Assembly (NCBI GenBank): GCA_914767715.1
Contig: OU612074.1
Location: 22,308,062 to 22,372,061, forward strand
Length of the DNA: 64,000 nucleotides
Direction of reading: 5' to 3'
Source: Membranipora membranacea
Taxonomy: Eukaryota; Bryozoa; Gymnolaemata; Cheilostomatida; Membraniporidae
The notes below the pieces were generated by a model that was not told where the DNA came from, did not search any database, and saw only the letters and a program-made list of their open reading frames with translations. The position numbers and the translations under genes were made by a program. Below are positions 38,011 to 63,604 of the stretch, piece after piece. How positions within the stretch are numbered: the first letter of the stretch is position 1; each line of letters starts with the position of its first letter.

Positions 38011-38040
38011 AACAGCTAGTTTATTGTCACAATTACAATC

Positions 38041-41741: not shown

Positions 41742-42558
41742 TGGTACAAATTTACTGCAGTACCAATCCTAGAGGTCTAGGCTGAGTGTAAAAATGGTTG
41801 TCACGGTTAGGTCGATGTAATTTGCAGACCAATGTAGCATTTGTCTCCCCTAGCGAAGTGCTTGTTTTTGAGAATGCTTTACATCTAGACACCAAGTAAT
41901 CAAATAAGACATGAGCATCCTCAAATAATTCCTTTGAACCAGTATCACATCCAAGAAATTTGAAATAGGCAAATAAGACGTGGCCATTGATTGAATCAAT
42001 TGCTTCTGGCACCACTTAATACGCAACACAACAAGTGGTGGTCAGGAACTGATACATTTGTTAAATTATGAATTAATTATTCTTGCTAGGTATCTAAATA
42101 CCAAATGCTAAATGCTCTTAGCAAGGCAGAAGCACACTACAGACCCCACTCAGCCAGTACCTCTTACTCCCTCTCCCACAGACCTTCTAGGTAATTTTAT
42201 AAAATAAATAAATATAACAAATAATTTAACGATATAATCTTAATATCGGATAATATTGGATAGAGACAGTTAATAATTTCCCTGATATATCCTTCCCTGA
42301 GAAGGATATAAAACCTCTATTAAACTTCTTGAATAGGTTGCTAAAAATCCCTTTTTGGCAACCTCTTCCACCGGTCCATATGGCATACTATTGGCAACAG
42401 TGTTCAGCCTCTTCCGGTAACCTCTTTCCAACTCAGTTTAGACAACTATTTGCCCGCTGGGTTAGTACCTTGGTACACTGCCGTCACCTTAGTACCTCAG
42501 TCACCTTGGTAGACTGCCGTGTTATGTCGCCAAAAATACCTACAGCACTGTTTTTTTA
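41742..42558. other. region upstream of the LRR gene
   Basis: Should contain the promoter and the 5' non-coding exon of the LRR gene; a pyrimidine tract and AG at about 42551-42559 look like an acceptor before the start exon. No core promoter element can be pointed to with confidence. Confidence 0.35.
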
Positions 42559-42604
42559 GGTTTGTGTCCTCTGTGGTTGTGTGAAGACAGTCAAAGACAA
42601 TATT

Positions 42605-42752
42605 ATGGGTACTGTGCTAGGTTGTATTGCCAGGAGATTCAACATAGAAGATGACAACACTGATACTACAACCACTTATTCAGGAGGAGAAAATGAAGGT
42701 CAGGTTACTGAAAGGAGAAAAGCTAAAGATAAACAACAGGCCGATATGTCGA
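42605..42752 (+). CDS. LRR gene, start exon (unit 1 only)
   Basis: Opens at ATG 42605 and runs to donor gtaagt in phase 1. It encodes MGTVLGCIARRFNIEDDN, then an acidic, Thr-rich and charged linker (GENEGQVTERRKAK), then DKQQADMS. Gly2 with small residues following and Cys7 before Arg-Arg fits N-myristoylation plus palmitoylation, which would attach the protein to the inner face of a membrane. From position 42728 (codon GAT) onward this exon is repeated at 50528 and 57743, but there it is joined to an LRR exon and not to a start region. Hence it is the only start in the triplicated block. Confidence 0.7.
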
Positions 42753-45700
42753 GTAAGTTTACTACCTAATATATTTGCGTTCTGTGAGTCACCATAGCTA
42801 TGTCCTGTCAAAGGCCATTTAGTTTTGTTGATAAGCTCGCTACCTCAGAGGGTCGTTCAAAGGAATATCTGCTCAGAAGCTGATGTTGATTAGCATTAAT
42901 GAGCTTTGTAAAATGTACATTTGGACCCTTTGGGGTCTAGACTAAATGTAAATTGAGACCCTCTGACAGATGAATATTGGCTTGTTTCTGATGAAAATCA
43001 GCCATCTATTGGAAGAAGGATGAACAGAACATGGGTACATAGTCAATAAACCACCGTGATATAGGGAATACTCTGGTCACCTCAGGCAGCATTCCTCATT
43101 GGTAAAGAGGTGTTGTGTAAATGACACAATCAGTAAGTTAGCCCAAGTTCACACAGATGAAGTAACATGTGTGTGTGTGGTGAGGGATGATTGTACACAT
43201 TTCTTGACCTATGTCAATTAAGCGTATATGATTGTAAACTTGTGACTCTGTTGCGCATAGCCAGTGATTTTGCTAAGTGATGATCTCTATTTAAACAGAA
43301 GTGTACAGTGTCTGGTACAGAGATTACAGTGAGGGAGGTATTGATGAGATACCTGAGAAGCCTGACTACAGAAGCCTGACGCTAGAACAGTTAGTATCAG
43401 CTACAAAAGGTCACAAGGTGACACATATGGCAATAAAAGGAGACATACCACCACTACACCCGATAGCACCTGATCTCAAGGTGCTGAAGGTCATATATAA
43501 TACCGGTTCAGCTAAGTTAGAGAGGTGAGTAGCGTGTGACAATATCAGATGAATCAGTATTACGAAAAATAATTCAAGTCATTAATTCTCGCATGTTTTA
43601 GAAATAAACGTTGTAACTATATCTAGGCAGCATTGTTATCTTTAGATAAGTTCATATTCTCAATATCAGCATCTTGAGTCCCTGATTTTATCTGATGACG
43701 AGATTGAGAATATGAATAATACAAACATGTCAACAGAAAGGGTGGGATACCCTCCCATCCTCCCTGGTGTCAATGATATATATCTTGCAGTGTGAATCAG
43801 AATTGTCTTCCCCTGTAAAAAAGTGAGATAACTGCCATGAATTATATTTAAGTTATTTTCATAGTTATTACCAGCACAGGATAATTCTATAATCTCATTT
43901 ATAGCATGAGATATATACTTTCCTGACAGATAAGCCAGCATAAGAAATCTTCTATACACTTTGTCTTATTTGATTGCGCCATTTAACGGGCGCTAGTGGC
44001 TTGTGCAGGTGCACTAATACCTTGCCGGCCGTTTCCGGCTACTCTTTATCTAATAAGAGCAATAGGGGGGATATTTATACTGTGTGCAGGCACACGGTAG
44101 ACTTCCTGTAAATATGGTCCTGATCCGAACAGACCTGGCTAGGATGAATGGCTTTCCAGTGTAAAAACAGAAATGACAGCCGGCGCCGGGAATCAAAGCT
44201 GGTTCATTGGATCAAAAGTCCTCACCCTTAACCGTCAGACCACTCATGACTTTTGAGATATATAGGTTTCTGTTGAAATGTTTTCGTTGTTGTGTGAGTA
44301 AGAGATTGTTATTTATATTAATATTATATGATCTGGGGAAGCTGACCGTATCTGGTAATGAGAGACTGTGTGCATCATCTGTTTGGATCAAAGAATAAAG
44401 AGCACAATAATAGTGGAATTAATATTTCTATATATTAACACCAGTTAAATAAATTTGAGGTATTACCTGTAATTTCACTCAGATAGTGTCATCATTTGTA
44501 AATTTAATCTATATGGGTATTTATAGCATAAGATCTCTAACTTGTCTGGAGGAGCTGATTGTAACAGGGAATGAGAGCCTGTGTACATTACCTGATGGGA
44601 TCGGAGAACTAAAGAGCCTCAGGAAGCTTGATGTGTCATGGTGTGATCTTACTAAGCTTCCTGACAGGTAAGTCGAGTATAATAACGATGGAGCTTATAT
44701 TTCTACAAATTATCTCGGTTTTGCAGTTTTGAGATATCAGCTCTTATTATTCTCATATAGTGTCTAAATGTTAAAATTCAATCTATATGGGTATTTATAG
44801 CATGAGATCTCTAACTTGTCTGGAAGAGCTTAATGTATCAGTGAATGAGGGTCTGTGTACATTACCTGATTGGATCGGAGAACTAAAGAGCCTCAGGAAG
44901 CTTTATGTGTCACACTGTGGTCTTACTAAGCTTCCTGACAGGTAAGTCGAGTATAATAACGATGGAGCTTATATTTCTAAAAATTATCTCGGTTCTGCAG
45001 TTTTAAGATATCAGCTCTTATTGTTCTCATATAGTGTCTAAATGTTAAAATTCAATATATATGGGTATTTATAGCATAGGATCTCTTATTTGTCTGGAGG
45101 AGCTGATTGTAACAGGGAATAAGAGCCTGTGTACATTACCTGATGAGATCGGAGAACTAAAGACCCTCAGGAAGCTTTTTGTGTCACGGTGTGGTCTTAC
45201 TAAGCTATCTGCCAGGTAAGTCGAGTATAATAACGATGGAGCTTATATTTCTAAAAATTATCTCGGTTCTGCAGTTTTAAGATATCAGCTCTTATTGTTC
45301 TCATATAGTGTTTAAATGTTAAAATTCAATATATATGGGTATTTATAGCATAGGATCTCTTATTTGTCTGGAAGAGCTGAATGTATCAGAGAATGAGGGT
45401 CTGTGTACATTACCTGATTGGATCGGAGAACTAAAGACCCTCAGGAAGCTTTTTGTGTCATGGTGTGATCTTACTAAGCTGTCTGCCAGGTAAGTCGAGT
45501 ATAATAACGATGGAGCATATATTTCTACAAATTATCTCGGTTTTGCAGTTTTGAGGTATTAGCTATTATTATTCTCATATAGTGTCTAAATGTTAAAATT
45601 CAATCTATATGGGTATTTATAGCATGAGATCTCTAACTTGTCTGGAAGAGCTTAATGTATCAGTGAATGAGGGTCTGTGTACATTACCTGATTGGATCGG

Positions 45701-48700
45701 AGAACTAAAGACCCTCAGGAAGCTTTTTGTGTCATGGTGTGGTCTTACTAAGCTTCCTGACAGGTAAGTCGAGTATGATAACGATGGAGCTTATATTTCT
45801 AAAAATTATCTCGGTTCTGCAGTTTTGAGATATCAGCTCTTATTATTCTCATATAGTGTCTAAATGTTAAAATTCAATCTATATGGGTATTTATAGCATA
45901 AGATCTCTTACTCGTCTGGAAGAGCTGAATGTATCAGAGAATGAGGGTCTGTGTACATTACCTGATTGGATCGGAGAACTAAAGAGCCTCAGGAAGCTTA
46001 ATGTGTCACACTGTGGTCTTACTAAGCTTCCTGACAGGTAAGTCGAGTATAATAACGATGGAGCTTATATTTCTAAAGATTATCTCGGTTCTGCAGTTTT
46101 GAGATATCAGCTCTTATTATTCTCATATAGTGTCTAAATGTTAAAATTCAATCTATATGGGTATTTATAGCATAAGATCTCTTACTCGTCTGGAAGAGCT
46201 AAATGTATGGAACAATAAGAGTCTGTGTACATTACCTGATGAGATCGGAGAACTAAAGAGCCTCAGGAAGCTTAATGTGTCACACTGTGGTCTTACTAAG
46301 CTTCCTGACAGGTAAGTCGAGTATGATAACGATGGAGCCTATATTTCTAAAAATTATCTCGGTTCTGCAGTTTAGAGATATCAGCTCTTATTATTCTCAT
46401 ATACTATAGTGTCTAAATGTTAAAATTCAATCTATGTATGTATGTATATATCTGTATCAATTCCCATGATAAAATCAATGTTTCTCTTGTGCTCTGTGAA
46501 TAAAAATAAAGTTTTATAAATTATAATAAAACATTGACTAGATTTATAATAAATGAATCAAGCTATTCGATTGAGCAGTTTTACACATAATGAGCGAAAA
46601 CAGTATTTACGGCAGTTTATACGGTAGGCTGGCACTCTGTATCTACCAGATGGGAGTTGTTCTAGCGTTATGACAGTGTCGTTGCCCGAAGCAAACATTC
46701 TTAGGCATTTAGTTTTGAAGTACTTATCGAATATATGGTCTATGGTTGTAACTTCAAGCCTGCCTTTGCTTAGTCTACGTGCTGTGGTTATGAGGTGATT
46801 GTACTGGTGATTGTATCTATATGGGTATTTTTAGCATAAGATCTCTAACTTGTCTGGAAGAGCTGATTGTATCATGGAATAACAATCTGTGTACATTACC
46901 TGATGGGATCGGAGAACTAAAGACCCTCAGGAACCTTGATGTGTCAGACTGTGATCTTACTAAGCTTCCTGACAGGTAAGTCGAGTATAATAACGATGGA
47001 GCTTATATTTCTACAAATTATCTCGGTTTTACAGTTTTGAGATATCAGCTCTTATTATTCTCATATTGTGTATGAATGTTAAAATTCAATCTATATGGGT
47101 ATTTATCATAGACTTAATATACTCCCTAGACAGGCCAATAGCATTCAATACTGTCCCACTTAAATAGCACGACATGACGTAATTAGTTTGTGCTGTGAGC
47201 CATAGTTTACTATATACCATTCAATGAAATAATGTGAAAAATCAAGGGACGCCAGGCATGATATCGGCCCTTGTCCGGCCCCTAATTATTTAAACACAGA
47301 GAAAATTTTGTGAGTTTATGTAAAAGACCGTTCCCCACGAGATGGTATAAAAAATTGACTCCTTAGGCGAATCCAAAGTGAGAACAAACCTGATAAGTTA
47401 CAATCATTAGCCAATAAATATTGAAACAAATACAGCCGTCTACCATTAACACTTCTACCACTACTATTCAAATGCATAGAATATCCACAACACAGTATCA
47501 CAAATATTTTGTTGGATGAGCCAGATCAAAGCACCACCACCATCATCATAGATTTTTGCCTAAACATTCCTAGTCATAACTGAGCACAACCTGCTCAGCT
47601 TGGATTCCTTGTTAAAAGATTTTACTGCAAATTTTATTGTCGCTTCATGAGGAAGAATAGATCTGTGCTGTAAATTGAGTATGCTAACTCCAGATATGTA
47701 TGTATGATGAAGCTAGGGTACGTGACATATATATATATATATAAAGTCTTTGGTAATCTCTCATCAATGAAATAATATAGTAAATCAAGACATGCAGGGT
47801 ATAATACCAGCCAAATTATACTAGATCTGTTTTATTTTATGAGATAAAAAATATCAAAACAAATACAGCCCTGTACTTAACCACTTCTATCACTACATGA
47901 CAAAAAAGATGAGGGCTGTTACTGTGGGATTATACTAATTTCTGAGGGCACGACCAAGGCTAGCGGCTACTTCTATCAGCGATTGCTGCCATATTCGATG
48001 TGACTGATTACAGCATAAGCTAAAGATTATCGACACAAGTACAGCCATGAAGCTAGCCACTTCTTATCACTACTTTGTAAAAAATATGAATATATACTGT
48101 TGAGTTATACTAATTGTTGTGGGCACGACAAAAATTAAAAACACTACCACTATCAGCGAGCATTGCAAAGTTAGATATGACTGGTTGCAGTATATGTTAA
48201 AATTATTCAAATTAGTAGAGCAATGTGAGCTAACCACTTCTTACACTACTTAGCAAAAAAAATAATATACTGTTGGATTATACTGAATTTTGCGGATGGG
48301 TCAAAGACTAGAAAACTACCACTATCGGTGATTACTGCAAAATTTCCAAATGAGACACTGTCAATTTTGGATGTAACATGGTATGACCAGGTCAATTTTT
48401 GATCAGAGCCTTGAAAAAACTATGGTTATAGGGTTATGGGCTATAGGAATGAGATAAGGGTCTCGGACCCACCCAACTATTATGGGTCTGGTCATGTTCT
48501 GGTGGTGGTCCTTCCAGCCGATGAACCCTCATGTCCTGGTGGTGGTCCATCCAGCAGATGAACCCTCATGTTCTGGTGGTGGTCCTTCCAGCCGATGAGC
48601 CCTCATGTTCTGGTGGTGGTCCTTCCAGCCGATGAACCCTCATGTCCTGGTTGTGGTCCATCCAGCATATGAACCCTCATGTCCTGGTTGTGGTCCATCC

Positions 48701-49979
48701 AGCCGATGAACCCTCATGTTCTGGTTGTAGTCCATCCAGCCGATGAACCCTCATGTCCTGGTTGTGGTCCATCCAGCCGATGAACCCTCATGTCCTGGTT
48801 GTGGTCCATCCAGCCGATGAACCCTCATGTCCTGGTGGTGGTCCTTCCAGCCGATGAGCCCTCATGTTCTGGTGGTGGTCCTTCCAGCCGATGAACCCTC
48901 ATGTCCTGGTTGTGGTCCATCCAGCATATGAACCCTCATGTCCTGGTTGTGGTCCATCCAGCCGATGAACCCTCATGTTCTGGTTGTAGTCCATCCAGCC
49001 GATGAACCCTCATGTCCTGGTTGTGGTCCATCCAGCCGATGAACCCTCATGTCCTGGTTGTGGTCCATCCAGCCGATGAACCCTCATGTCCTGGTTGTGG
49101 TCCATCCAGCCGATGACCCCTCATGTCCTGGTTGTGGTCCATCCAGCAGATGAACCCTCATGTCCCGGTTGTGATCCATCAGGCCGATGAACCCTCATGT
49201 CCTGGTTGTGGTTCAAACCTGGATGACCATATTCACTATGTTTACTATTGTCCCAAATACAATAGCATTAGACGTTTTCCTAAAACCAATCACTTTCTAG
49301 ATAAACCAAAATAGGCATCGAGGTTCCAGATCTTGTTGTCTTCATTTGTCAGTCATGCAAGTTTGATAACCATAAGATGTAAGAGCATACTTGCTTACCT
49401 GGGCCTCTGAGTACTATGTGTACCTGTACCTGTACTATGATAATACAATCATGTTGCATTATCCCCCATTGAAGACCAGACAAGACAATTTGTAGGTCAC
49501 AGGTTCCATTCAATTATATCACTACTAATGCTCATAATTATGATTTTATCGCTTTGAGTAACTTTCACAAACCTGTGGTGGTATTTTGGAGTATTTTAAT
49601 TTGAGATGTTAAAAAATTTATTTTTCGAAATGTTTCAGAGAATCATATAGGATGTATTGTGGTTCAGCATAGAAATGAAATAGCCACTGCATTGTGGTCT
49701 ATATAATAGAAAAAAATATTAACAACATTACATCCTGTCATGTGTGTTAGCAATCTGGGTAATTACGGGATATTCAGTCATTCTCATAGTCATGGCATAT
49801 ATAACAACACTATTAATATTATATTTTGTAGGAAACAATGTTCAATTCAAACATGTTCCCACTAATGCCCATGACATGCATTAATCTCATAAGAGGTCAA
49901 AATAATTGGTGATGTGATGTGTGAGATTTACTATTAGAATGCATGCAGCTTAAGCTCCAGCCTAGCATATTGATTGATA

Positions 49980-50016
<37 letters not shown>

Positions 50017-50038
50017 GTTGATTGATTGATTGATTGAC

Positions 50039-50099
<61 letters not shown>

Positions 50100-53000
50100 A
50101 ATTGGTCCCAACCACATAACATTTGGCATGTCGTGAGTCCAGCAAGTGACTTTTGATCACTCAGGCTTCATATAGCAACAGCCTATCAGGACAAATCTCC
50201 CATTCTCCCTGCATACATTAAGAGATTCTTCACTCTGTGCAAGGATTATCAAAACTTAAAACAAGTATATTATTATATGAACATTTTTTGTTCTTCAGTC
50301 TGTGTGGATTGTCGAAGCTAGAGGTACTCTTTCTCTCAAAAAATGAAGAGATCATCAGACTTCCAGCTCAGCTACACAGACTTAACAGACTGATAAGACT
50401 GGAACTTTCAGGATGTAAATCTCTAACATTCCCACCGCCTGAAGTGATTGGACAGGGTCTGCCAGCAATACGAAAATTTCTGACTGATCTTGACAACGGT
50501 GTTGGAGTTAAATTCATGCCAGTGACTGATAAACAACAGGCCGATATGTCGAGTAAGTTTACTACCTAATATATTTGCGTTCTGTGAGTCACCATAGCTA
50601 TGTCCTGTCAAAGGCCATTTAGTTTTGTTGATAAGCTCGCTACCTCAGAGGGTCGTTCAAAGGAATATCTGCTCAGAAGCTGATGTTGATTAGCATTAAT
50701 GAGCTTTGTAAAATGTACATTTGGACCCTTTGGGGTCTAGACTAAATGTAAATTGAGACCCTCTGACAGATGAATATTGGCTTGTTTCTGATGAAAATCA
50801 GCCATCTATTGGAAGAAGGATGAACAGAACATGGGTACATAGTCAATAAACCACCGTGATATAGGGAATACTCTGGTCACCTCAGGCAGCATTCCTCATT
50901 GGTAAAGAGGTGTTGTGTAAATGACACAATCAGTAAGTTAGCCCAAGTTCACACAGATGAAGTAACATGTGTGTGTGTGGTGAGGGATGATTGTACACAT
51001 TTCTTGACCTATGTCAATTAAGCGTATATGATTGTAAACTTGTGACTCTGTTGCGCATAGCCAGTGATTTTGCTAAGTGATGATCTCTATTTAAACAGAA
51101 GTGTACAGTGTCTGGTACAGAGATTACAGTGAGGGAGGTATTGATGAGATACCTGAGAAGCCTGACTACAGAAGCCTGACGCTAGAACAGTTAGTATCAG
51201 CTACAAAAGGTCACAAGGTGACACATATGGCAATAAAAGGAGACATACCACCACTACACCCGATAGCACCTGATCTCAAGGTGCTGAAGGTCATATATAA
51301 TACCGGTTCAGCTAAGTTAGAGAGGTGAGTAGCGTGTGACAATATCAGATGAATCAGTATTACGAAAAATAATTCAAGTCATTAATTCTCGCATGTTTTA
51401 GAAATAAACGTTGTAACTATATCTAGGCAGCATTGTTATCTTTAGATAAGTTCATATTCTCAATATCAGCATCTTGAGTCCCTGATTTTATCTGATGACG
51501 AGATTGAGAATATGAATAATACAAACATGTCAACAGAAAGGGTGGGATACCCTCCCATCCTCCCTGGTGTCAATGATATATATCTTGCAGTGTGAATCAG
51601 AATTGTCTTCCCCTGTAAAAAAGTGAGATAACTGCCATGAATTATATTTAAGTTATTTTCATAGTTATTACCAGCACAGGATAATTCTATAATCTCATTT
51701 ATAGCATGAGATATATACTTTCCTGACAGATAAGCCAGCATAAGAAATCTTCTATACACTTTGTCTTATTTGATTGCGCCATTTAACGGGCGCTAGTGGC
51801 TTGTGCAGGTGCACTAATACCTTGCCGGCCGTTTCCGGCTACTCTTTATCTAATAAGAGCAATAGGGGGGATATTTATACTGTGTGCAGGCACACGGTAG
51901 ACTTCCTGTAAATATGGTCCTGATCCGAACAGACCTGGCTAGGATGAATGGCTTTCCAGTGTAAAAACAGAAATGACAGCCGGCGCCGGGAATCAAAGCT
52001 GGTTCATTGGATCAAAAGTCCTCACCCTTAACCGTCAGACCACTCATGACTTTTGAGATATATAGGTTTCTGTTGAAATGTTTTCGTTGTTGTGTGAGTA
52101 AGAGATTGTTATTTATATTAATATTATATGATCTGGGGAAGCTGACCGTATCTGGTAATGAGAGACTGTGTGCATCATCTGTTTGGATCAAAGAATAAAG
52201 AGCACAATAATAGTGGAATTAATATTTCTATATATTAACACCAGTTAAATAAATTTGAGGTATTACCTGTAATTTCACTCAGATAGTGTCATCATTTGTA
52301 AATTTAATCTATATGGGTATTTATAGCATAAGATCTCTAACTTGTCTGGAGGAGCTGATTGTAACAGGGAATAAGAGCCTGTGTACATTACCTGATGGGA
52401 TCGGAGAACTAAAGAGCCTCAGGAAGCTTGATGTGTCATGGTGTGATCTTACTAAGCTTCCTGACAGGTAAGTCGAGTATAATAACGATGGAGCTTATAT
52501 TTCTACAAATTATCTCGGTTTTGCAGTTTTGAGATATCAGCTCTTATTATTCTCATATAGTGTCTAAATGTTAAAATTCAATCTATATGGGTATTTATAG
52601 CATGAGATCTCTAACTTGTCTGGAAGAGCTTAATGTATCAGTGAATGAGGGTCTGTGTACATTACCTGATTGGATCGGAGAACTAAAGAGCCTCAGGAAG
52701 CTTTATGTGTCACACTGTGGTCTTACTAAGCTTCCTGACAGGTAAGTCGAGTATAATAACGATGGAGCTTATATTTCTAAAAATTATCTCGGTTCTGCAG
52801 TTTTAAGATATCAGCTCTTATTGTTCTCATATAGTGTCTAAATGTTAAAATTCAATATATATGGGTATTTATAGCATAGGATCTCTTATTTGTCTGGAGG
52901 AGCTGATTGTAACAGGGAATAAGAGCCTGTGTACATTACCTGATGAGATCGGAGAACTAAAGACCCTCAGGAAGCTTTTTGTGTCACGGTGTGGTCTTAC

Positions 53001-56000
53001 TAAGCTATCTGCCAGGTAAGTCGAGTATAATAACGATGGAGCTTATATTTCTACAAATTATCTCGGTTTTGCAGTTTTGAGGTATTAGCTATTATTATTC
53101 TCATATAGTGTCTAAATGTTAAAATTCAATCTATATGGGTATTTATAGCATAAGATCTCTTACTCGTCTGGAAGAGCTAGATGTATGGCGCAATAAGGTT
53201 CTGTGTACATTACCTGATGAGATCGGAGAACTAAAGAGCCTCAGGAAGCTTGATGTGTCAGAGTGTGGTCTTACTAAGCTTCCTGACAGGTAAGTCGAGT
53301 ATGATAACGATGGAGCTTATATTTCTAAAAATTATCTCGGTTCTGCAGTTTTGAGATATCAGCTCTTATTATTCTCATATAGTGTCTAAATGTTAAAATT
53401 CAATCTATATGGGTATTTATAGCATAAGATCTCTTACTCGTCTGGAAGAGCTGAATGTATCAGAGAATGAGGGTCTGTGTACATTACCTGATTGGATCGG
53501 AGAACTAAAGAGCCTCAGGAAGCTTAATGTGTCACACTGTGGTCTTACTAAGCTTCCTGACAGGTAAGTCGAGTATAATAACGATGGAGCTTATATTTCT
53601 AAAGATTATCTCGGTTCTGCAGTTTTGAGATATCAGCTCTTATTATTCTCATATAGTGTCTAAATGTTAAAATTCAATCTATATGGGTATTTATAGCATA
53701 AGATCTCTTACTCGTCTGGAAGAGCTAAATGTATGGAACAATAAGAGTCTGTGTACATTACCTGATGAGATCGGAGAACTAAAGAGCCTCAGGAAGCTTA
53801 ATGTGTCACACTGTGGTCTTACTAAGCTTCCTGACAGGTAAGTCGAGTATGATAACGATGGAGCCTATATTTCTAAAAATTATCTCGGTTCTGCAGTTTA
53901 GAGATATCAGCTCTTATTATTCTCATATACTATAGTGTCTAAATGTTAAAATTCAATCTATGTATGTATGTATATATCTGTATCAATTCCCATGATAAAA
54001 TCAATGTTTCTCTTGTGCTCTGTGAATAAAAATAAAGTTTTATAAATTATAATAAAACATTGACTAGATTTATAATAAATGAATCAAGCTATTCGATTGA
54101 GCAGTTTTACACATAATGAGCGAAAACAGTATTTACGGCAGTTTATACGGTAGGCTGGCACTCTGTATCTACCAGATGGGAGTTGTTCTAGCGTTATGAC
54201 AGTGTCGTTGCCCGAAGCAAACATTCTTAGGCATTTAGTTTTGAAGTACTTATCGAATATATGGTCTATGGTTGTAACTTCAAGCCTGCCTTTGCTTAGT
54301 CTACGTGCTGTGGTTATGAGGTGATTGTACTGGTGATTGTATCTATATGGGTATTTTTAGCATAAGATCTCTAACTTGTCTGGAAGAGCTGATTGTATCA
54401 TGGAATAACAATCTGTGTACATTACCTGATGGGATCGGAGAACTAAAGACCCTCAGGAACCTTGATGTGTCAGACTGTGATCTTACTAAGCTTCCTGACA
54501 GGTAAGTCGAGTATAATAACGATGGAGCTTATATTTCTACAAATTATCTCGGTTTTACAGTTTTGAGATATCAGCTCTTATTATTCTCATATTGTGTATG
54601 AATGTTAAAATTCAATCTATATGGGTATTTATCATAGACTTAATATACTCCCTAGACAGGCCAATAGCATTCAATACTGTCCCACTTAAATAGCACGACA
54701 TGACGTAATTAGTTTGTGCTGTGAGCCATAGTTTACTATATACCATTCAATGAAATAATGTGAAAAATCAAGGGACGCCAGGCATGATATCGGCCCTTGT
54801 CCGGCCCCTAATTATTTAAACACAGAGAAAATTTTGTGAGTTTATGTAAAAGACCGTTCCCCACGAGATGGTATAAAAAATTGACTCCTTAGGCGAATCC
54901 AAAGTGAGAACAAACCTGATAAGTTACAATCATTAGCCAATAAATATTGAAACAAATACAGCCGTCTACCATTAACACTTCTACCACTACTATTCAAATG
55001 TATAGAATATCCACAACACAGTATCACAAATATTTTGTTGGATGAGCCAGATCAAAGCACCACCACCATCATCATAGATTTTTGCCTAAACATTCCTAGT
55101 CATAACTGAGCACAACCTGCTCAGCTTGGATTCCTTGTTAAAAGATTTTACTGCAAATTTTATTGTCGCTTCATGAGGAAGAATAGATCTGTGCTGTAAA
55201 TTGAGTATGCTAACTCCAGATATGTATGTATGATGAAGCTAGGGTACGTGACATATATATATATATATATAAAGTCTTTGGTAATCTCTCATCAATGAAA
55301 TAATATAGTAAATCAAGACATGCAGGGTATAATACCAGCCAAATTATACTAGATCTGTTTTATTTTATGAGATAAAAAATATCAAAACAAATACAGCCCT
55401 GTACTTAACCACTTCTATCACTACATGACAAAAAAGATGAGGGCTGTTACTGTGGGATTATACTAATTTCTGAGGGCACGACCAAGGCTAGCGGCTACTT
55501 CTATCAGCGATTGCTGCCATATTCGATGTGACTGATTACAGCATAAGCTAAAGATTATCGACACAAGTACAGCCATGAAGCTAGCCACTTCTTATCACTA
55601 CTTTGTAAAAAATATGAATATATACTGTTGAGTTATACTAATTGTTGTGGGCACGACAAAAATTAAAAACACTACCACTATCAGCGAGCATTGCAAAGTT
55701 AGATATGACTGGTTGCAGTATATGTTAAAATTATTCAAATTAGTAGAGCAATGTGAGCTAACCACTTCTTACACTACTTAGCAAAAAAAATAATATACTG
55801 TGGGATTATACTGAATTTTGCGGATGGGTCAAAGACTAGAAAACTACCACTATCGGTGATTACTGCAAAATTTCCAAATGAGACACTGTCAATTTTGGAT
55901 GTAACATGGTATGACCAGGTCAATTTTTGATCAGAGCCTTGAAAAAACTATGGTTATAGGGTTATGGGCTATAGGAATGAGATAAGGGTCTCGGACCCAC

Positions 56001-57174
56001 CCAACTATTATGGGTCTGGTCATGTTCTGGTGGTGGTCCTTCCAGCCGATGAGCCCTCATGTTCTGGTGGTGGTCCTTCCAGCCGATGAACCCTCATGTC
56101 CTGGTTGTGGTCCATCCAGCATATGAACCCTCATGTCCTGGTTGTGGTCCATCCAGCCGATGAACCCTCATGTTCTGGTTGTAGTCCATCCAGCCGATGA
56201 ACCCTCATGTCCTGGTTGTGGTCCATCCAGCCGATGAACCCTCATGTCCTGGTTGTGGTCCATCCAGCCGATGAACCCTCATGTCCTGGTTGTGGTCCAT
56301 CCAGCCGATGACCCCTCATGTCCTGGTTGTGGTCCATCCAGCAGATGAACCCTCATGTCCCGGTTGTGATCCATCAGGCCGATGAACCCTCATGTCCTGG
56401 TTGTGGTTCAAACCTGGATGACCATATTCACTATGTTTACTATTGTCCCAAATACAATAGCATTAGACGTTTTCCAAAAACCAATCACTTTCTAGATAAA
56501 CCAAAATAGGCATCGAGGTTCCAGATCTTGTTGTCTTCATTTGTCAGTCATGCAAGTTTGATAACCATAAGATGTAAGAGCATACTTGCTTACCTGGGCC
56601 TCTGAGTACTATGTGTACCTGTACCTGTACTATGATAATACAATCATGTTGCATTATCCCCCATTGAAGACCAGACAAGACAATTTGTAGGTCACAGGTT
56701 CCATTCAATTATATCACTACTAATGCTCATAATTATGATTTTATCGCTTTGAGTAACTTTCACAAACCTGTGGTGGTATTTTGGAGTATTTTAATTTGAG
56801 ATGTTAAAAAATTTATTTTTCGAAATGTTTCAGAGAATCATATAGGATGTATTGTGGTTCAGCATAGAAATGAAATAGCCACTGCATTGTGGTCTATATA
56901 ATAGAAAAAAATATTAACAACATTACATCCTGTCATGTGTGTTAGCAATCTGGGTAATTACGGGATATTCAGTCATTCTCATAGTCATGGCATATATAAC
57001 AACACTATTAATATTATATTTTGTAGGAAACAATGTTCAATTCAAACATGTTCCCACTAATGCCCATGACATGCATTAATCTCATAAGAGGTCAAAATAA
57101 TTGGTGATGTGATGTGTGAGATTTACTATTAGAATGCATGCAGCTTAAGCTCCAGCCTAGCATATTGATTGATA

Positions 57175-57211
<37 letters not shown>

Positions 57212-57233
57212 GTTGATTGATTGATTGATTGAC

Positions 57234-57314
<81 letters not shown>

Positions 57315-59956
57315 AATTGGTCCCAACCACATAACATTTGGCATGTCGTGAGTCCAGCAAGTGACTTTTGATCACTCAGGCTTCATATAGCAACAGCCTA
57401 TCAGGACAAATCTCCCATTCTCCCTGCATACATTAAGAGATTCTTCACTCTGTGCAAGGATTATCAAAACTTAAAACAAGTATATTATTATATGAACATT
57501 TTTTGTTCTTCAGTCTGTGTGGATTGTCGAAGCTAGAGGTACTCTTTCTCTCAAAAAATGAAGAGATCATCAGACTTCCAGCTCAGCTACACAGACTTAA
57601 CAGACTGATAAGACTGGAACTTTCAGGATGTAAATCTCTAACATTCCCACCGCCTGAAGTGATTGGACAGGGTCTGCCAGCAATACGAAAATTTCTGACT
57701 GATCTTGACAACGGTGTTGGAGTTAAATTCATGCCAGTGACTGATAAACAACAGGCCGATATGTCGAGTAAGTTTACTACCTAATATATTTGCGTTCTGT
57801 GAGTCACCATAGCTATGTCCTGTCAAAGGCCATTTAGTTTTGTTGATAAGCTCGCTACCTCAGAGGGTCGTTCAAAGGAATATCTGCTCAGAAGCTGATG
57901 TTGATTAGCATTAATGAGCTTTGTAAAATGTACATTTGGACCCTTTGGGGTCTAGACTAAATGTAAATTGAGACCCTCTGACAGATGAATATTGGCTTGT
58001 TTCTGATGATAATCAGCCATCTATTGGAAGAAGGATGAACAGAACATGGGTACATAGTCAATAAACCACCGTGATATAGGGAATACTCTGGTCACCTCAG
58101 GCAGCATTCCTCATTGGTAAAGAGGTGTTGTGTAAATGACACAATCAGTAAGTTAGCCCAAGTTCACACAGATGAAGTAACATGTGTGTGTGTGGTGAGG
58201 GATGATTGTACACATTTCTTGACCTATGTCAATTAAGCGTATATGATTGTAAACTTGTGACTCTGTTGCGCATAGCCAGTGATTTTGCTAAGTGATGATC
58301 TCTATTTAAACAGAAGTGTACAGTGTCTGGTACAGAGATTACAGTGAGGGAGGTATTGATGAGATACCTGAGAAGCCTGACTACAGAAGCCTGACGCTAG
58401 AACAGTTAGTATCAGCTACAAAAGGTCACAAGGTGACACATATGGCAATAAAAGGAGACATACCACCACTACACCCGATAGCACCTGATCTCAAGGTGCT
58501 GAAGGTCATATATAATACCGGTTCAGCTAAGTTAGAGAGGTGAGTAGCGTGTGACAATATCAGATGAATCAGTATTACGAAAAATAATTCAAGTCATTAA
58601 TTCTCGCATGTTTTAGAAATAAACGTTGTAACTATATCTAGGCAGCATTGTTATCTTTAGATAAGTTCATATTCTCAATATCAGCATCTTGAGTCCCTGA
58701 TTTTATCTGATGACGAGATTGAGAATATGAATAATACAAACATGTCAACAGAAAGGGTGGGATACCCTCCCATCCTCCCTGGTGTCAATGATATATATCT
58801 TGCAGTGTGAATCAGAATTGTCTTCCCCTGTAAAAAAGTGAGATAACTGCCATGAATTATATTTAAGTTATTTTCATAGTTATTACCAGCACAGGATAAT
58901 TCTATAATCTCATTTATAGCATGAGATATATACTTTCCTGACAGATAAGCCAGCATAAGAAATCTTCTATACACTTTGTCTTATTTGATTGCGCCATTTA
59001 ACGGGCGCTAGTGGCTTGTGCAGGTGCACTAATACCTTGCCGGCCGTTTCCGGCTACTCTTTATCTAATAAGAGCAATAGGGGGGATATTTATACTGTGT
59101 GCAGGCACACGGTAGACTTCCTGTAAATATGGTCCTGATCCGAACAGACCTGGCTAGGATGAATGGCTTTCCAGTGTAAAAACAGAAATGACAGCCGGCG
59201 CCGGGAATCAAAGCTGGTTCATTGGATCAAAAGTCCTCACCCTTAACCGTCAGACCACTCATGACTTTTGAGATATATAGGTTTCTGTTGAAATGTTTTC
59301 GTTGTTGTGTGAGTAAGAGATTGTTATTTATATTAATATTATATGATCTGGGGAAGCTGACCGTATCTGGTAATGAGAGACTGTGTGCATCATCTGTTTG
59401 GATCAAAGAATAAAGAGCACAATAATAGTGGAATTAATATTTCTATATATTAACACCAGTTAAATAAATTTGAGGTATTACCTGTAATTTCACTCAGATA
59501 GTGTCATCATTTGTAAATTTAATCTATATGGGTATTTATAGCATAAGATCTCTAACTTGTCTGGAGGAGCTGATTGTAACAGGGAATAAGAGCCTGTGTA
59601 CATTACCTGATGGGATCGGAGAACTAAAGAGCCTCAGGAAGCTTGATGTGTCATGGTGTGATCTTACTAAGCTTCCTGACTGGTAAGTCGAGTATAATAA
59701 CGATGGAGCTTATATTTCTACAAATTATCTCGGTTTTGCAGTTTTGAGATATCAGCTCTTATTATTCTCATATAGTGTCTAAATGTTAAAATTCAATCTA
59801 TATGGGTATTTATAGCATAAGATCTCTTACTCACCTGGAAGAGCTGAATTTATCATGGAATGAGAGCCTGTGTACATTACCTGATGGGATCGGAGAACTA
59901 AAGAGCCTCAGGAAGCTTGATGTGTCATGGTGTGGTCTCACTAAGCTTCCTGACAG
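42605..59956 (+). CDS. Multi-block leucine-rich-repeat gene across three tandem units (model)
   Basis: All exons listed separately here join with compatible phases: 42605-42752 (out 1); 43299-43524 (1 to 2); eight 141-bp exons (2 to 2); 50299-50552 (2 to 1); 51099-51324; seven 141-bp exons; 57514-57767; 58314-58539; two 141-bp exons to 59956. The sum is 3,731 nt, about 1,243 codons without a stop. The LRRs are of the intracellular L..L..L.L..N.L..LP..I type seen in LRR-ROCO, LRR-death-domain and SHOC2-like proteins. A possible role is cytosolic or membrane-anchored recognition, an inference from the repeat type and the acylation-like start. No downstream effector, stop codon or poly-A site is found to the right edge. 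Separate transcripts per unit remain possible, but units 2 and 3 lack starts. Confidence 0.6.
43299..43524 (+). CDS. LRR gene, 226-bp linker/N-cap exon, unit 1
   Basis: Phase 1 in, phase 2 out, acceptor ttaaacag, donor gtgagt. Encodes about 75 residues: KVYSVWYRDYSEGG, EIPEKPDYRSLTLEQLVSAT, GHKVTHMAIKG, then LKVLKVIYNTGSAKLE. The last part has LRR spacing and likely caps the following repeats; the first part matches no domain I know. Exact copies stand at the start of each unit. Confidence 0.8.
44160..44252 (-). repeat. Degenerate tRNA-like SINE head (also 51960-52052 and 59175-59267)
   Basis: On the minus strand, GAGTGGTCTGACGGTTAAGG is A-box-like and AGCTTTGATTCCCGGCGCC carries a degenerate B box. 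It lies in the intron before the LRR cassettes in all three units, so it was there before the duplications. Confidence 0.45.
44333..44396 (+). pseudogene. Dead LRR cassette (also 52133-52196 and 59348-59411)
   Basis: Reads LGKLTVSGNERLCASSVWIK and then a stop, aligning with LEELIVTGNESLCTLPDGIG of the live cassettes. It lacks the second LRR and the donor. The same remnant occurs in all three units. Confidence 0.7.
44527..46975 (+). CDS. LRR gene, eight cassette exons, unit 1
   Basis: Exons 44527-44667, 44801-44941, 45075-45215, 45349-45489, 45623-45763, 45897-46037, 46171-46311 and 46835-46975. Each is exactly 141 bp, starts with C after tag and ends with AG before gtaagt (phase 2-2), so any number can be joined or skipped without loss of frame. 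Each codes two LRRs: (I/M)(R/G)SLTCLEEL-V---N-LCTLPD-IGEL, then K(S/T)LRKL-VS-C-LTKL. The spacing is 274 bp for the first seven with near-identical 133-bp introns. Variation falls on the residues around the LxVxxN strands: ITG, NSV, NSE, NWN, ISW before Asn, and D, Y, F, N before VS followed by W, H, R, D. The second of each pair ends in LPD or LSA. Confidence 0.93.
46558..46812 (-). pseudogene. Retrotransposon C-terminal remnant between cassettes 7 and 8, unit 1
   Basis: An 84-codon open minus-strand stretch ending in TGA: HLITTARRLSKGRLEV, then FASGNDTVITLEQLPSGRYR and INCRKYCFRSLCVKLLNRIA. The closing pattern resembles the C-terminus of LINE polyproteins. It interrupts the regular cassette spacing and is also present in unit 2 (about 54084-54338) but not in unit 3. 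Confidence 0.4.
47107..48420. repeat. Intronic repeat element with internal subrepeats, unit 1
   Basis: Starts CATAGACTTAATATAC, the terminus of the 4617-5081 family, inserted in a cassette-type intron. Inside, diverged subrepeats of about 170-190 bp share acagcc...ccacttct...cacta...gcaaaa...tatac and begin near 47445, 47866, 48031 and 48210. A TA run lies at 47730-47745. Copies lie at 54633-55940 and 60090-61351. The other terminal repeat is not found. Confidence 0.65.
48487..49215 (+). repeat. 37-bp minisatellite, about 20 copies, unit 1
   Basis: Unit gaaccctcatgtcctggttg plus tggtccatccagccgat, period 37, hence not frame-preserving. Variants (ttctggtggtgg, catat for ccgat) show higher-order duplication within the array. 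It runs directly into the zinc-knuckle coding remnant at 49186. Confidence 0.95.
49186..49314 (+). pseudogene. Zinc-knuckle tail of a non-LTR retrotransposon, unit 1
   Basis: Reads DEPSCPGCGSNLDDHIHYVY, then YCPKYNSIRRF and a stop. Pattern C-x2-C ... H ... C followed by CP-Y--IR is the C-terminal zinc finger of many LINE reverse transcriptases. The first codons (DEPSCPGCG) are the unit of the neighbouring minisatellite. The same remnant lies at 56381-56509 in unit 2. Confidence 0.6.
49972..50100. repeat. (ATTG)n microsatellite, unit 1
   Basis: About 30 tetranucleotide copies with a few substitutions (gataga, ggttggtt, gact). The copy in unit 2 is longer. Confidence 0.95.
50299..50552 (+). 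CDS. LRR gene, fused junction exon, unit 1 to unit 2
   Basis: 254 bp, phase 2 in (acceptor ttcttcag), phase 1 out (gtaagt). Encodes two LRRs (LCGLSKLEVLFLSKNEEIIR, then LNRLIRLELSGCKSLTFPPP), the post-LRR motif EVIGQGLPAIRKFLTDLDNG and KFMPVT, and from codon GAT 50528 onward DKQQADMS, which is the tail of the start exon at 42605. PP-E-----G--AI--FL is the usual last-repeat signature before a downstream domain in ROCO-type proteins. Here the downstream part has been replaced by the duplication junction, in frame. Confidence 0.85.
51099..51324 (+). CDS. LRR gene, 226-bp exon, unit 2
   Basis: Copy of 43299-43524 with the same phases and splice sites and no visible difference in the encoded residues. 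Joins the fused junction exon 50299-50552 in phase 1 and the cassettes at 52327 in phase 2. Confidence 0.8.
52327..54501 (+). CDS. LRR gene, seven cassette exons, unit 2
   Basis: Exons 52327-52467, 52601-52741, 52875-53015, 53149-53289, 53423-53563, 53697-53837 and 54361-54501, each 141 bp and phase 2-2. Cassettes 1-3 match unit-1 cassettes 1-3 (one Glu to Lys change in the first), and 5-7 match unit-1 cassettes 6-8. The fourth (LEELDVWRNKVLCTLPDEIG, then LDVSECGLTKL) has no identical partner in unit 1 and stands in place of its cassettes 4 and 5. All are open and have intact splice sites. Confidence 0.93.
54633..55940. repeat. Intronic repeat element, unit 2
   Basis: Copy of 47107-48420 with the same start and subrepeats; the TA run at 55253-55270 is slightly longer. 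Confidence 0.7.
56020..56405 (+). repeat. 37-bp minisatellite, about 10 copies, unit 2
   Basis: Same unit as at 48487 with roughly half the copies. The terminal copies, including the variant with cccggttgtgatccatcagg, are the same as in unit 1. Confidence 0.95.
57165..57315. repeat. (ATTG)n microsatellite, unit 2
   Basis: Same run as in unit 1, about 20 bp longer, with the same internal substitutions near its left end. Confidence 0.95.
57514..57767 (+). CDS. LRR gene, fused junction exon, unit 2 to unit 3
   Basis: Copy of 50299-50552, again joining the last-LRR sequence (ending KFMPVT) to DKQQADMS at codon GAT 57743. The junction is the same base as in the first fusion, so both come from one duplication structure that was later copied again. 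Confidence 0.85.
58314..58539 (+). CDS. LRR gene, 226-bp exon, unit 3
   Basis: Third copy of the 43299-43524 exon, intact, phases 1 to 2. Joins 57514-57767 and the cassettes at 59542. Confidence 0.8.
59542..59956 (+). CDS. LRR gene, two cassette exons, unit 3
   Basis: Exons 59542-59682 and 59816-59956, 141 bp each. The first equals cassette 1 but ends TG before gtaagt, so the residue at the joint becomes Cys instead of Ser. The second (LTHLEELNLSWNESL, then LDVSWCGLTKLPD) is a combination not found in units 1 or 2. No last-LRR exon follows within this unit, so the transcript's end is unknown. Confidence 0.9.
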
Positions 59957-60089
59957 GTAAGTCGAGTATAATAACGATGGAGCTTATATTTCTAAAAATT
60001 ATCTCGGTTCTGCAGTTTTGAGATATCAGCTCTTATTATTTTCATATTGTGTATGAATGTTAAAATTCAATCTATATGGGTATTTATCA

Positions 60090-60705
60090 TAGACTTAATA
60101 TACTACCTAGACAGGCCAATAGCATTCAATACTGTCCCACTTAAATAACACGACATGACGTAATTAGTTTGTGCTGTGAGCCATAGTTTACTATATACCA
60201 TTCAATGAGATAATGTGAAAAATGAAGGGACGCCGGGCATGATATCGGCCCTTGTCCGGCCCCTAATTATTTAAACACAGAAAATTTTGTGAGTTTATGT
60301 AAAAGACCGTTCCCCACGAGATGGTATAAAAAATTGACTCCTTAGGCGAATCCAAAGTGAGAACAAACCTGATAAGTTACAATCATTAGCCAATAAATAT
60401 TGAAACAAATACAGCCGTCTACCATTAACACTTCTACCACTACTATTCAAATGCATAGAATACCCACAACACAGTATCACAAATATTTTGTTGGATGAGC
60501 CAGATCAAAGCACCACCACCATCATCATAGATTTTTGCCTAAACATTCCTAGTCATGACTGAGCACAACCTGCTCAGCTTGGATTCCTTGTTAAAAGATT
60601 TTACTGCAAATTTTATTGTCGCTTCATGAGGAAGAATAGATCTGTGCTGTAAATTGAGTATGCTAACTCCAGATATGTATGTATGATGAAGCTAGGGTAC
60701 GTGAC

Positions 60706-60736
<31 letters not shown>

Positions 60737-61351
60737 AAGTCTTTGGTAATCTCTCATCAATGAAATAATATAGTGAATCAAGACATGCAGGGTATAATAC
60801 CAGCCAAATTATACTAGATCTGTTTTATTTTATGAGATAAAAAATATCAAAACAAATACAGCCCTGTACTTAACCACTTCTATCACTACATGACAAAAAA
60901 GATGAGGGCTGTTACTGTGGGATTATACTAATTTCTGAGGGCACGACCAAGGCTAGCGGCTACTTCTATCAGCGATTGCTGCCATATTCGATGTGACTGA
61001 TTACAGCATAAGCTAAAGATTATCGACACAAATACAGCCATGAAGCTAGCCACTTCTTATCACTACTTTGTAAAAAATATGAATATATACTGTTGAGTTA
61101 TACTAATTGTTGTGGGCACGACAAAAATTAAAAACACTACCACTATCAGCGAGCATTGCAAAGTTAGATATGACTGGTTGCAGTATATGTTAAAATTATT
61201 CAAATTAGTAGAGCAATGTGAGCTAACCACTTCTTACACTACTTAGCAAAAAAAATAATATACTGTTGGATTATACTGAATTTTGCGGATGGGTCAAAGA
61301 CTAGAAAACTACCACTATCGGTGATTACTGCAAAATTTCCAAATGAGACAC
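60090..61351. repeat. Intronic repeat element, unit 3
   Basis: Copy of 47107-48420 with a longer TA run (60706-60736). Ends where unit 3 diverges; a further diverged subrepeat (cacaaaagcctgctcagttt) follows at about 61390. Confidence 0.7.
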
Positions 61352-62270
61352 CATCAATATCAGCGATCGCTGAAAATTAGATATGACTGAACACAAAAGC
61401 CTGCTCAGTTTGGAGCGCTTATTGTCAGTGTTTGCTGCGAGTTTGGTTGTTTCATGGTGTATTCTGACCAGCGTTTATCTCTTCACTATTAGGGGTTTGT
61501 AGATAGTGTGGGAAGGATTGGAAAATTGTTGGGATAGCATCCTTTTTTAGCAAAGCTCTCCCACACCAGGAGGCCTTCTAAATGTATCTCGTTTCAAATG
61601 TTCGCTACATAGAACAGCATATTTGGATGGAGTCTAGTTCTTGCGTTTAACGGCCGAAACCCATACCTTTAGTCTCTCCTCGTTATTTCTGGGGAAGGCG
61701 TGGAAGCTTAAATTAGGATTTCCTGCTGGGTTATTTCCACAGCAGTAGGCAGCACACCAGTTTCTAGATGACTTTTTTTAAAAGCATCACAAATGATAAC
61801 ATGTACAAACAATTATCATTAAACTACAGCTTTTGATATAATAAACAGAAATTGTAAAATCAATTTCATAGCAGCGTCAGCATGGCCAAAAAAGATTTGC
61901 GAGATCACCAATTAAGTCTACTCACATTTTTTGACTGCTGTGCCAGTTCTGAGTTTGATATTTCGGGAGTAAATCAGAATTGTCATCACAAATAGTGTCC
62001 CTCCAGCCCCCCCCCCCCGCCCCATCAATATTGTTCCACCTTTTTTTTCTTACATTCAAATTTTATCACACCCATCGATTATTATTTACTATGTCTATAG
62101 CCTTAAATTTATGTGCATGTATAGAAGGATGTGGGTATTATCTAAAAAATTAAGGAAGCCTGTCCTCTTAGATGGATGGGACAAGCAGAAATTATGCCAA
62201 AAAATTCAATCCAATAAAGACCGAGATATGACAATGCATACATGAGAGCCACCACTGGGCTGTTTCTTAC
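61352..62270. other. no recognised gene
   Basis: Unique AT-rich sequence after the end of unit 3, with a C-run at about 62008-62023. Forms the loop between the inverted repeat arms at 60580-60885 and 62640-63603. Confidence 0.4.
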
Positions 62271-62531
62271 CTTATCATCTTGTGAAGTGGTAGCAGCAGG
62301 ATTTTCATCTTGTGAAGATGAGGCAGCAAGATTACCATCTTGTAAAGATGAGGCAGCCAGATTATCATCTTGTGAAGATGAGGTAGCAGGCTGTAGGCTC
62401 ATTTAAAATTAGTTTTGCTATAAACTGAGCAGCGTGGGTATTATATCCAGAACTTCTATGTTTGCCTTGTATCTCGCAACTGATGGTAGTAAAATTGCAG
62501 CTGGGCTTACTTGTGAAGATGAGACAGCAGG
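62271..62531 (-). CDS. Two exons of a Ser/Gln/Asp-rich repeat protein (partial)
   Basis: Minus-strand exons 62511-62531 (21 bp, PAVSSSQ) and 62271-62390 (120 bp) are both phase 0-0 with good acceptors (cctgcag, cctacag) and donors (gtaagc, gtaaga). The longer exon is four tandem versions of a 10-11 residue unit: PATSSSQDDNL, AASSLQDGNL, AASSSQDENPA, ATTSQDDK. The microexon equals the start of the unit. Both exons begin with the same bases after the same kind of acceptor, so one arose from the other. The peptide is low-complexity and probably disordered. No start, stop or neighbouring exon was found, and the exons lie inside repeat DNA, so it could be a fragment carried with it. Confidence 0.5.
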
Positions 62532-62994
62532 CTGCAGGTTCACGTTATATGAATAAATAATCTCAACGAAGTATGAATATTAAAACCAGTAACCACTTTG
62601 TTTACCTAGTATCTTTCATCTTCTGTTTAAGTACAGGGCTGTATTTGTTTTGATAATTTGTATCTCATAAATTAAAATAGTTCTAAAATAATTTGGCTGG
62701 TATTATACCCGGTGTGCCTTGATTTACTATATTATTTCATTGATGAGAGATGACCATAGACTTAAAGACTTTGTTTGAGGCTGCTCTTTTGTATCACATC
62801 TTATTCTCCATATTTTATTCTATCATGTGAGCGATTTTCAGCTTTAGAATCCAAATATTGAGGAAGTTATGGCCTCTCAAACTTCCAAGGTGACGGCAAT
62901 TTATCGGCAGTAAGAGTCAGCCGGCAATCCCTAGGGTACGTCACAACCATCATACTTATTACGATACACTAATAAATATGTTGATGATCAAAAT

Positions 62995-63075
62995 GTTCAG
63001 ATCTGTAACGGTCTCGAACCCAGGACCAAATGGCTTTGCAGGCAACGCCGCTAACACTGAGCTATATTGTCTACT
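62995..63075 (-). repeat. tRNA-like sequence, minus strand
   Basis: Read on the minus strand: ATAGCTCAGTGTTAGCGG (A box / D-arm), TTGCCTGCAAAGCC (anticodon-like loop with TGC/GCA) and TCCTGGGTTCGAGACC (T-arm and B box). Close to a tRNA but without a clean acceptor stem; probably SINE-derived. Confidence 0.55.
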
Positions 63076-63094
63076 GGCCCACCTAGTTGGTCCA

Positions 63095-63172
63095 AGTGGC
63101 GTGATGGGTGATGTTAGCGTCGATGCCTATAGGTATGGGAACCCGGGTTCGATTCCCACCCAGGTCTGAATT
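63095..63172 (+). repeat. tRNA-like sequence, plus strand
   Basis: GTGATGGGTGATGTTAGCG, then GATGCCTATAGGTATGGG and ACCCGGGTTCGATTCCCACC with a good B box. The A box is weak. It faces away from the minus-strand tRNA-like sequence 20 bp to its left. Confidence 0.5.
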
Positions 63173-63604
63173 TTGATCATCCTCTTATCTGTGTGATTAT
63201 TAGTGTATTAACTATTAACTCATAATAATTATCACCATAGACAAAACACATGTCTATGGTTGTGAGGTACCCCAGGGGAAACATCCGCTTATTCCCAATG
63301 CCGATTGAAGGCAATCACCCTGGAAGTTTGAGAGGCCATAACTTCCTCAATATTTGAATTCTAAAGCTGAAAATCGCTCACATGATAGAATAAAATATGG
63401 AGAATAAGATGTGATACAAAAGAGCAGCTTCAAAAAAAGTCTTTAATATATATATATATATATTTATATGTGCCACGTACCCTAGCTTCATGATACATAC
63501 ATACCTTGAGTTGGCATACTCAATTTACAGCACAGATCTATTCTTCCTAATGAAGTGATGAAAAAAAAAATAGGAGTAAAAAACTGTAACAAGGAATCCA
63601 AGCT

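Follow-up and report, generated by a model that had tools for sequence, protein, structure and literature searches.

The window analysed here, a stretch of 64,000 nucleotides of the Membranipora membranacea genome (C10:22308062-22372061), contains a gene in which three tandem units follow one another on the plus strand; a self-alignment of the window places their starts at 42728, 50528 and 57743. The window cuts the gene, and coordinates called extended below run on past the window end at 64000. Exon 1 (42605-42752, plus strand, as are all parts of the gene given here) carries the sole start codon, an ATG, and is preceded by a 5' leader (42462-42604) that matches paralogue A at 96.5% over 143 bp and paralogue B at 91.9% over 124 bp. 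No match of at least 120 bp to this leader is present ahead of unit 2 or unit 3, in agreement with the earlier claim that unit 1 alone has a start.

Unit 1 (42728-50527, 7,800 bp) starts within exon 1 and comprises the end of that exon, exon 2 (43299-43524, 226 bp), eight LRR exons (44527-46975, 141 bp each, the first seven on a 274-bp exon-plus-intron period) and the last LRR with its linker. Exon 2, which is read as an LRR N-cap, is asymmetric, being entered in phase 1 and left in phase 2. Unit 2 (50528-57742, 7,215 bp) contains exon 2 (51099-51324), seven LRR exons and the last LRR. The part of unit 3 that lies within the window (57743-64000) contains exon 2 (58314-58539) and two LRR exons (59542-59682 and 59816-59956), after which the long last intron begins; the unit runs to extended coordinate 74045. 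Thus, the unit length of 7.8 kb given earlier applies to unit 1 and not to the other two. In each unit the 274-bp exon-plus-intron repeat carries the LRR exons, which are 141 bp long and in phase 2-2 in 17 of 17 cases in the window model, and which are arranged differently in each unit: a-b-c-d-e-f-g-h (unit 1), a-b-c-x-f-g-h (unit 2) and a-y (unit 3). An LRR exon remnant that ends in a stop, seen by eye at 44334-44400, lies just 5' of the first used LRR exon and has copies in units 2 and 3. A 37-bp minisatellite, assigned to the last intron, is present at 48492-49212 in unit 1 (19.5 copies) and at 56020-56407 in unit 2 (10.5 copies).

The units meet at two joints, 50527|50528 and 57742|57743, which are letter-identical and in frame. 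In the first joint exon (50299-50552) the last LRR and its linker, ending ...KFMPVT, are fused to DKQQADMS, and the donor of exon 1 then follows; the joint in the second joint exon (57514-57767) is identical. The 229 bp 5' of the joints, which are last-LRR exon sequence, are the same at both, and the 42 bp 3' of each joint are identical to a stretch of exon 1 that includes its GTAAGT donor. Only 1 base is shared at the junction. In a genome search, which covers one assembled individual, a 290-bp query spanning the joint gave a full-length match solely at these two joints.

Conceptual splicing of the window yields a frame of 1,243 codons plus 2 bases, with matching phases throughout. The model of the whole gene, built from the window and its extension, has 24 exons and 1,918 codons, with GT-AG borders at 23 of 23 introns, no internal stop and one terminal stop. 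The sequence-only reading had described three LRR units fused in frame, breakpoints inside two coding exons with the frame kept and the donor of exon 1 used at both joints, and about 1,243 codons without a stop; at the DNA level, all of this is borne out.

The position of the breakpoints matters for the frame. Since exon 2 is asymmetric and the LRR exons are in phase 2-2, a duplication running from exon 2 through the LRR exons, with its breakpoints in introns, would shift the frame; at the observed joint, the frame is kept because the joint carries the phase-1 donor of exon 1. When pairs of breakpoints were placed at random on a reconstructed 18.2-kb single-unit locus, 0.9% hit two different coding exons and 0.31% also kept the frame. 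Such an in-frame, exon-to-exon event within a large, duplicating family is unusual but not impossible.

The last exon and the predicted protein

A query with the last LRR exon located the native copy of this exon at C10:22381859. The last exon of the gene is situated outside the window, some 10 kb beyond its end, at extended 73817-75842 (C10:22381878-22383903), and is reached across an intron of 13.9 kb that has a retroelement inside. This exon codes for the last LRR, followed by a Roc GTPase and then by a COR-like region; it reads KFMPVT|VIGEAMAGKTSLVKS..., that is, the P-loop comes after the linker. Roc is matched by PF08477 (E 1.3e-7, 32.3 bits against a cut-off of 27), and a Roc match was obtained in all three tails scanned at E <=0.1, the best at 1.9e-8. 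COR-A lies directly after Roc (E 2.3e-5) with a score of 24.8 bits over 87 of 143 positions, which is below the Pfam cut-off of 35.3; it was likewise matched in three of three tails scanned at E <=0.1. N-terminal of Roc, LRR families of Pfam match down to E 3.7e-53. The GTPase motifs GEAMAGKTS and DFGGQ can be seen as motifs alone, and THCD in the Roc tail is what we take to be G4. In a profile of three tails, the PPPE-QG-A-R linker, MAGKTSL and DFGGQ align with the solved bacterial chain 6hlu; PDB entries 6hlu and 3dpu, listed as 'Rab family protein', are presumably the Chlorobium tepidum Roco. By these matches the gene belongs to the ROCO family, with a predicted three LRR blocks on one Roc-COR GTPase.

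Paralogues B (tail at C10:22185988), C (tail at C10:22298084) and D (tail at C10:22520445) have an uninterrupted LRR-linker-Roc order. At the site of the joint they read KFMPVT|VIGEAMAGKTS, and one exon-2 match lies ahead of each tail. In the window gene, both joints cut where Roc begins, just ahead of the P-loop, and the last codons of exon 1 stand there instead. What the sequence-only reading named the last LRR exon corresponds, in paralogues B, C and D as well as in unit 3, to the 5' part of a single large LRR-Roc-COR exon. Overall, that reading is partly supported, and what is new is the ROCO identity, the gene end outside the window and the position of the joint at the LRR/Roc boundary. 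The predicted protein had also been inferred to be receptor-like; ROCO proteins are generally intracellular.

Several other features surround the gene. Open frames at window 551-1033 (minus strand) and extended 84425-84901 (minus strand) are very similar to each other, lie about 84 kb apart and flank the ROCO gene, and gene C and the window gene agree at 95% in their 3' flanks; together, these similarities suggest a segmental duplication of about 84 kb. The frame at 551-1033 (minus strand) has no Pfam match. In the long last intron, the stretch from window 63590-64000 on to extended 65649 is a retroelement with a reverse transcriptase match (PF00078) and with open frames that look integrase-like by eye, and stretches of 63597-66618 match an intron of gene B at 97-99%. 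Another reverse transcriptase open frame is present at window 38020-39006 (plus strand; PF00078, E 3.7e-18), and a fragment at 24618-24727 (minus strand) matches the eukaryotic large-subunit rRNA (RF02543, 53.3 bits).

History of the units and of the ROCO family

Units 1 and 2 show 0-2 differences per compared stretch (194-1,259 bp, taken from beyond the inner LRR array), or about 0.1%, and exon 2 shows 0 differences among the units. An ATTG repeat has 34 copies in unit 1 versus 39 in unit 2. Unit 3 is equally close to units 1 and 2 over its first 2 kb, differs from them by 0.9-1.3% in the later introns and by 9.2% in the last LRR exon, and contains about 9 kb of last intron that is absent from units 1 and 2, parts of which are also found in B, C and D. 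Judged from this pattern, unit 3 is a mosaic. The identity of the two joints suggests that the joint arose once. Given the shared absence of about 9 kb from units 1 and 2, their divergence of about 0.1% and the mosaic unit 3, at least three events are needed: formation of the joint, a deletion and a further duplication of a unit. Besides these, turnover of LRR exons is required. The proposal that a longer protein was built in one step is too simple as a history. In the simplest history, a single formation of the joint would have been followed by the deletion and then by another copying of the unit, while LRR exons turned over and sequence was exchanged locally with paralogues.

Origin of a unit wholly from another paralogue was considered and rejected: when compared in 100-bp steps, the unit has no one relative that stays nearest along its length. 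For example, the 190 bp 5' of the last LRR exon of unit 1 are nearest to D (0.5%) and are 5.8% away from unit 3, and the intron at 49214-49884 is 1.3% from unit 3. A mosaic with local exchange fits these comparisons better than a single-paralogue origin.

As judged by matches, the genome contains a large ROCO family; the counts are of exons and matches, not of curated genes. Genome-wide, a Roc-COR query gave 66 scored matches from 277 candidates, and an exon-2 query gave at least 145 matches (150 of 182 candidates were scored). Many of the matches are clustered on C1, C3, C5 and C10. A stop is present inside the matched stretch in 30 of the 66 scored Roc tails; since the stop of paralogue B is near the end of its frame, some of these may be natural ends. 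Exon 2 and tails were paired for 45 of the 145 exon-2 matches and 40 of the 66 scored tails, taken from C1, C10 and one C3 gene; C5, the rest of C3, C8, C9, C11, C2 and a few isolated C1/C10 matches, where tails are under-sampled, lie outside the pairing. In this sample 37 of the 40 tails have one exon 2, one tail has none and one has two that are 82 kb apart; three close together occur in the window gene alone, and triplication in other C1/C10 genes was accordingly rejected for these 40 tails. The LRR exons are 141 bp long by pattern in 18 of 18 cases in paralogue A and in 16 of 18 in paralogue B, where the others have 159 and 135 bp; this length check covers 18 exons in each gene, tblastn counting 25 LRR matches in A and 24 in B.

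The two halves of the gene diverge differently. Roc-COR has pN/pS values of 0.23-0.39 in six pairs of four tails. In the LRR half of the last exon, pN/pS is 0.67-2.04 in five pairs, and the C-B pair has 14 replacement and 0 silent changes. These values come from simple counting on paralogues that exchange sequence, so that ratios near or above 1 do not constitute a formal test. Across ten distinct LRR exons taken from the window, concave LRR positions have a pN of 0.30 and a pS of 0.19, compared with 0.055 and 0.084 elsewhere, the concave positions having been named from the LxxLxLxxN pattern after the variable columns had been viewed. In paralogue B (16 LRR exons, the two of odd length left out), pN at the concave positions is hardly above pS (0.252 and 0.242). 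Introns between the window LRR exons differ by 4% over their first 90 bp, and the exons by 9% at silent and 11% at replacement positions. From these counts, the LRR exons look driven to diversify and Roc-COR looks constrained, a pattern that would be expected of a recognition surface as far as simple counting on recombining sequences can tell. The joints themselves are too young for selection to have tested them.

A two-block ROCO layout is present at four loci on C3, at 19.00, 19.09, 19.14 and 19.30 Mb. Block 1 consists of exon 2, LRR exons (2, 19, 22 and 6 in locus order) and a last LRR exon without Roc; in four of four loci, block 2 brings another exon 2, followed by three LRR exons and by the beginning of a Roc tail. 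In all four, the last exon of block 1 ends at a phase-1 donor, CTGAAAG|GTAAAT (one has an in-frame 3-bp difference just 5' of it), and a phase-1 acceptor precedes the second exon 2. One of these loci, spliced conceptually, is open through nine exons into Roc, although the donor of its block-2 exon 2, GTTGGT, is weak. The two exon-2 copies of this locus differ with pS 0.57 and pN 0.26 and are, on these values, old. A first exon was located for neither block of the C3 arrangement, and the blocks could instead be separate genes, the first of which has lost Roc. The four loci, being related copies, amount to a single event. A further candidate at C3:25.73 Mb (C3:25727500-25734499, minus strand) was rejected. 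There, exon 2 and its flanks alone are duplicated, the copies being 1.6 kb apart with no LRR match between them, and, given the asymmetric phase of exon 2, both copies in series would break the frame. Tentatively, chaining of whole LRR blocks onto one Roc-COR might be a recurrent route to receptors in this genome, with at least two origins: the exon-to-exon joint with three blocks in the window and the last LRR exon with its phase-1 donor and two blocks on C3. If so, blocks could be selected or strung together by splicing thanks to their common phase, and a single locus would yield multivalent or selectable sensors.

The predicted product and its alternatives

In the explanation that we favor, a tandem duplication would have fused the LRR/Roc border of the last exon in frame with the interior of exon 1, and the unit so formed would then have been duplicated again. 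In the DNA, the frame opens with the N-terminal extension, runs through three LRR blocks, each of the first two followed by a linker, and ends with Roc and the COR-like region. Transcription would start at unit 1 and splicing would run through both joints; the product would be an intracellular sensor of about 1,918 residues, with a single GTPase switch that takes its input from three diversifying LRR blocks. We assign a probability of about 0.62 to a single predicted, chained ROCO protein with three LRR blocks, spliced through the joints. The LRR-rich front half is probably ligand-binding, and by analogy the role would most likely be the recognition of varied ligands, as has been proposed for brown-algal ROCO genes. 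The 13.9-kb last intron with its retroelement, the COR-A score below the cut-off, the stops in 30 of 66 Roc tails and the likeness of the units, from which an open frame would follow in any case, argue against the chained protein. The explanations that follow are not fully exclusive of it.

The units could be alternative cassettes, with exon 1 spliced to any one of the three exon-2 copies. Exon 1 and both joint exons share a phase-1 donor that is accepted by all three copies of exon 2; such splicing would give predicted proteins of 1,918, 1,382 or 893 residues, with different LRR sets on one Roc-COR, and the sets do differ among the units (8, 7 and 2 exons). Alternative splicing of LRR exons is described for the brown-algal ROCO genes (PMC11378527). 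However, the GT-AG borders of the joint exons are ordinary and give no reason for skipping, and we consider such cassette use unlikely.

Quite unlikely, in our estimation, is a recent, non-functional duplication in which the recent origin of the copies alone keeps the frame open and the RNA would be truncated or degraded. The units resemble each other so closely, with units 1 and 2 about 0.1% apart outside the LRR array and 0 differences in exon 2, that an open frame would be expected even without function, and the 30 of 66 Roc tails with an internal stop, some of them maybe natural ends, indicate that decay may be common in the family. On the other hand, no stop, frameshift or broken splice border occurs across the 24 exons of the model, and the older, comparable layout stays in phase at the four C3 loci. 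A fault of the assembly, for instance through duplication of a haplotype or of a repeat, is very improbable: tandem units this similar are a known source of trouble, but these differ in content (LRR exons d and e versus x, 19.5 versus 10.5 copies of the 37-bp repeat, 34 versus 39 of ATTG) and by the intron of about 9 kb in unit 3, and the assembly, 339 Mb in 18 contigs, looks chromosome-scale.

If the joints of the chained gene are spliced through, a duplication with both breakpoints in coding exons would have given rise to a multi-block sensor protein rather than to a paralogue. A question that thereby becomes testable is whether several LRR blocks can be read out by one GTPase.

Comparison with known systems

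The gene resembles the bacterial ROCO proteins 6hlu and 3dpu in its PPPE..QG..A.R linker, its P-loop MAGKTSL and DFGGQ. Unlike the gene described here, the bacterial ROCO of these entries is intronless and has a single LRR block. Concave LRR positions that diversify, as they appear to do here, and unequal exchange of LRR units are also features of plant NLR and lamprey VLR receptors; their switch is a different one (NB-ARC) or is lacking, and that part is not homologous to ROCO. Brown algae, too, have ROCO genes (LRR-ROC-COR) in which LRR exons are shuffled (PMC11378527, where Zambounis 2012 is cited).

In the brown-algal account, the LRRs of these genes lie in 72-bp, phase-2 exons that are arranged in tandem and shuffled, and positive selection acts on the concave LRR face (PMC11378527). 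The window gene is similar in its LRR-Roc-COR order, in its tandem, shuffled phase-2 LRR exons of constant length, in belonging to a large family and, as far as simple counting goes, in replacement changes that seem concentrated at concave positions. It differs in that each LRR exon has 141 bp and two LRRs, whereas the brown-algal exon has one (PMC11378527). Brown algae have 9-47 such genes per species, most of them dispersed on different scaffolds (PMC11378527); here, many matches are clustered, and with at least 145 exon-2 matches and 66 scored Roc tails, which are not curated genes, the family looks larger, with LRR exons apparently driven to diversify. The existence of a large, shuffling ROCO recognition repertoire outside brown algae is thus open to test. 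Neither chained LRR blocks nor an in-frame joint is described in the available part of the brown-algal account (PMC11378527), and titles and abstract openings in the open-licence literature yielded no report of chained LRR blocks in ROCO genes. Duplication of the EGFR kinase domain is, according to the excerpted source, also an in-frame tandem duplication inside one gene (PMC7925532); there, a block of exons 18-25 is duplicated in human cancers, whereas here the breakpoints lie inside exons and within a large gene family. Thus, as far as these partial sources go, the closest published kind is the exon-shuffled ROCO gene of brown algae (PMC11378527), to which the gene described here adds the chaining of whole LRR blocks in frame.
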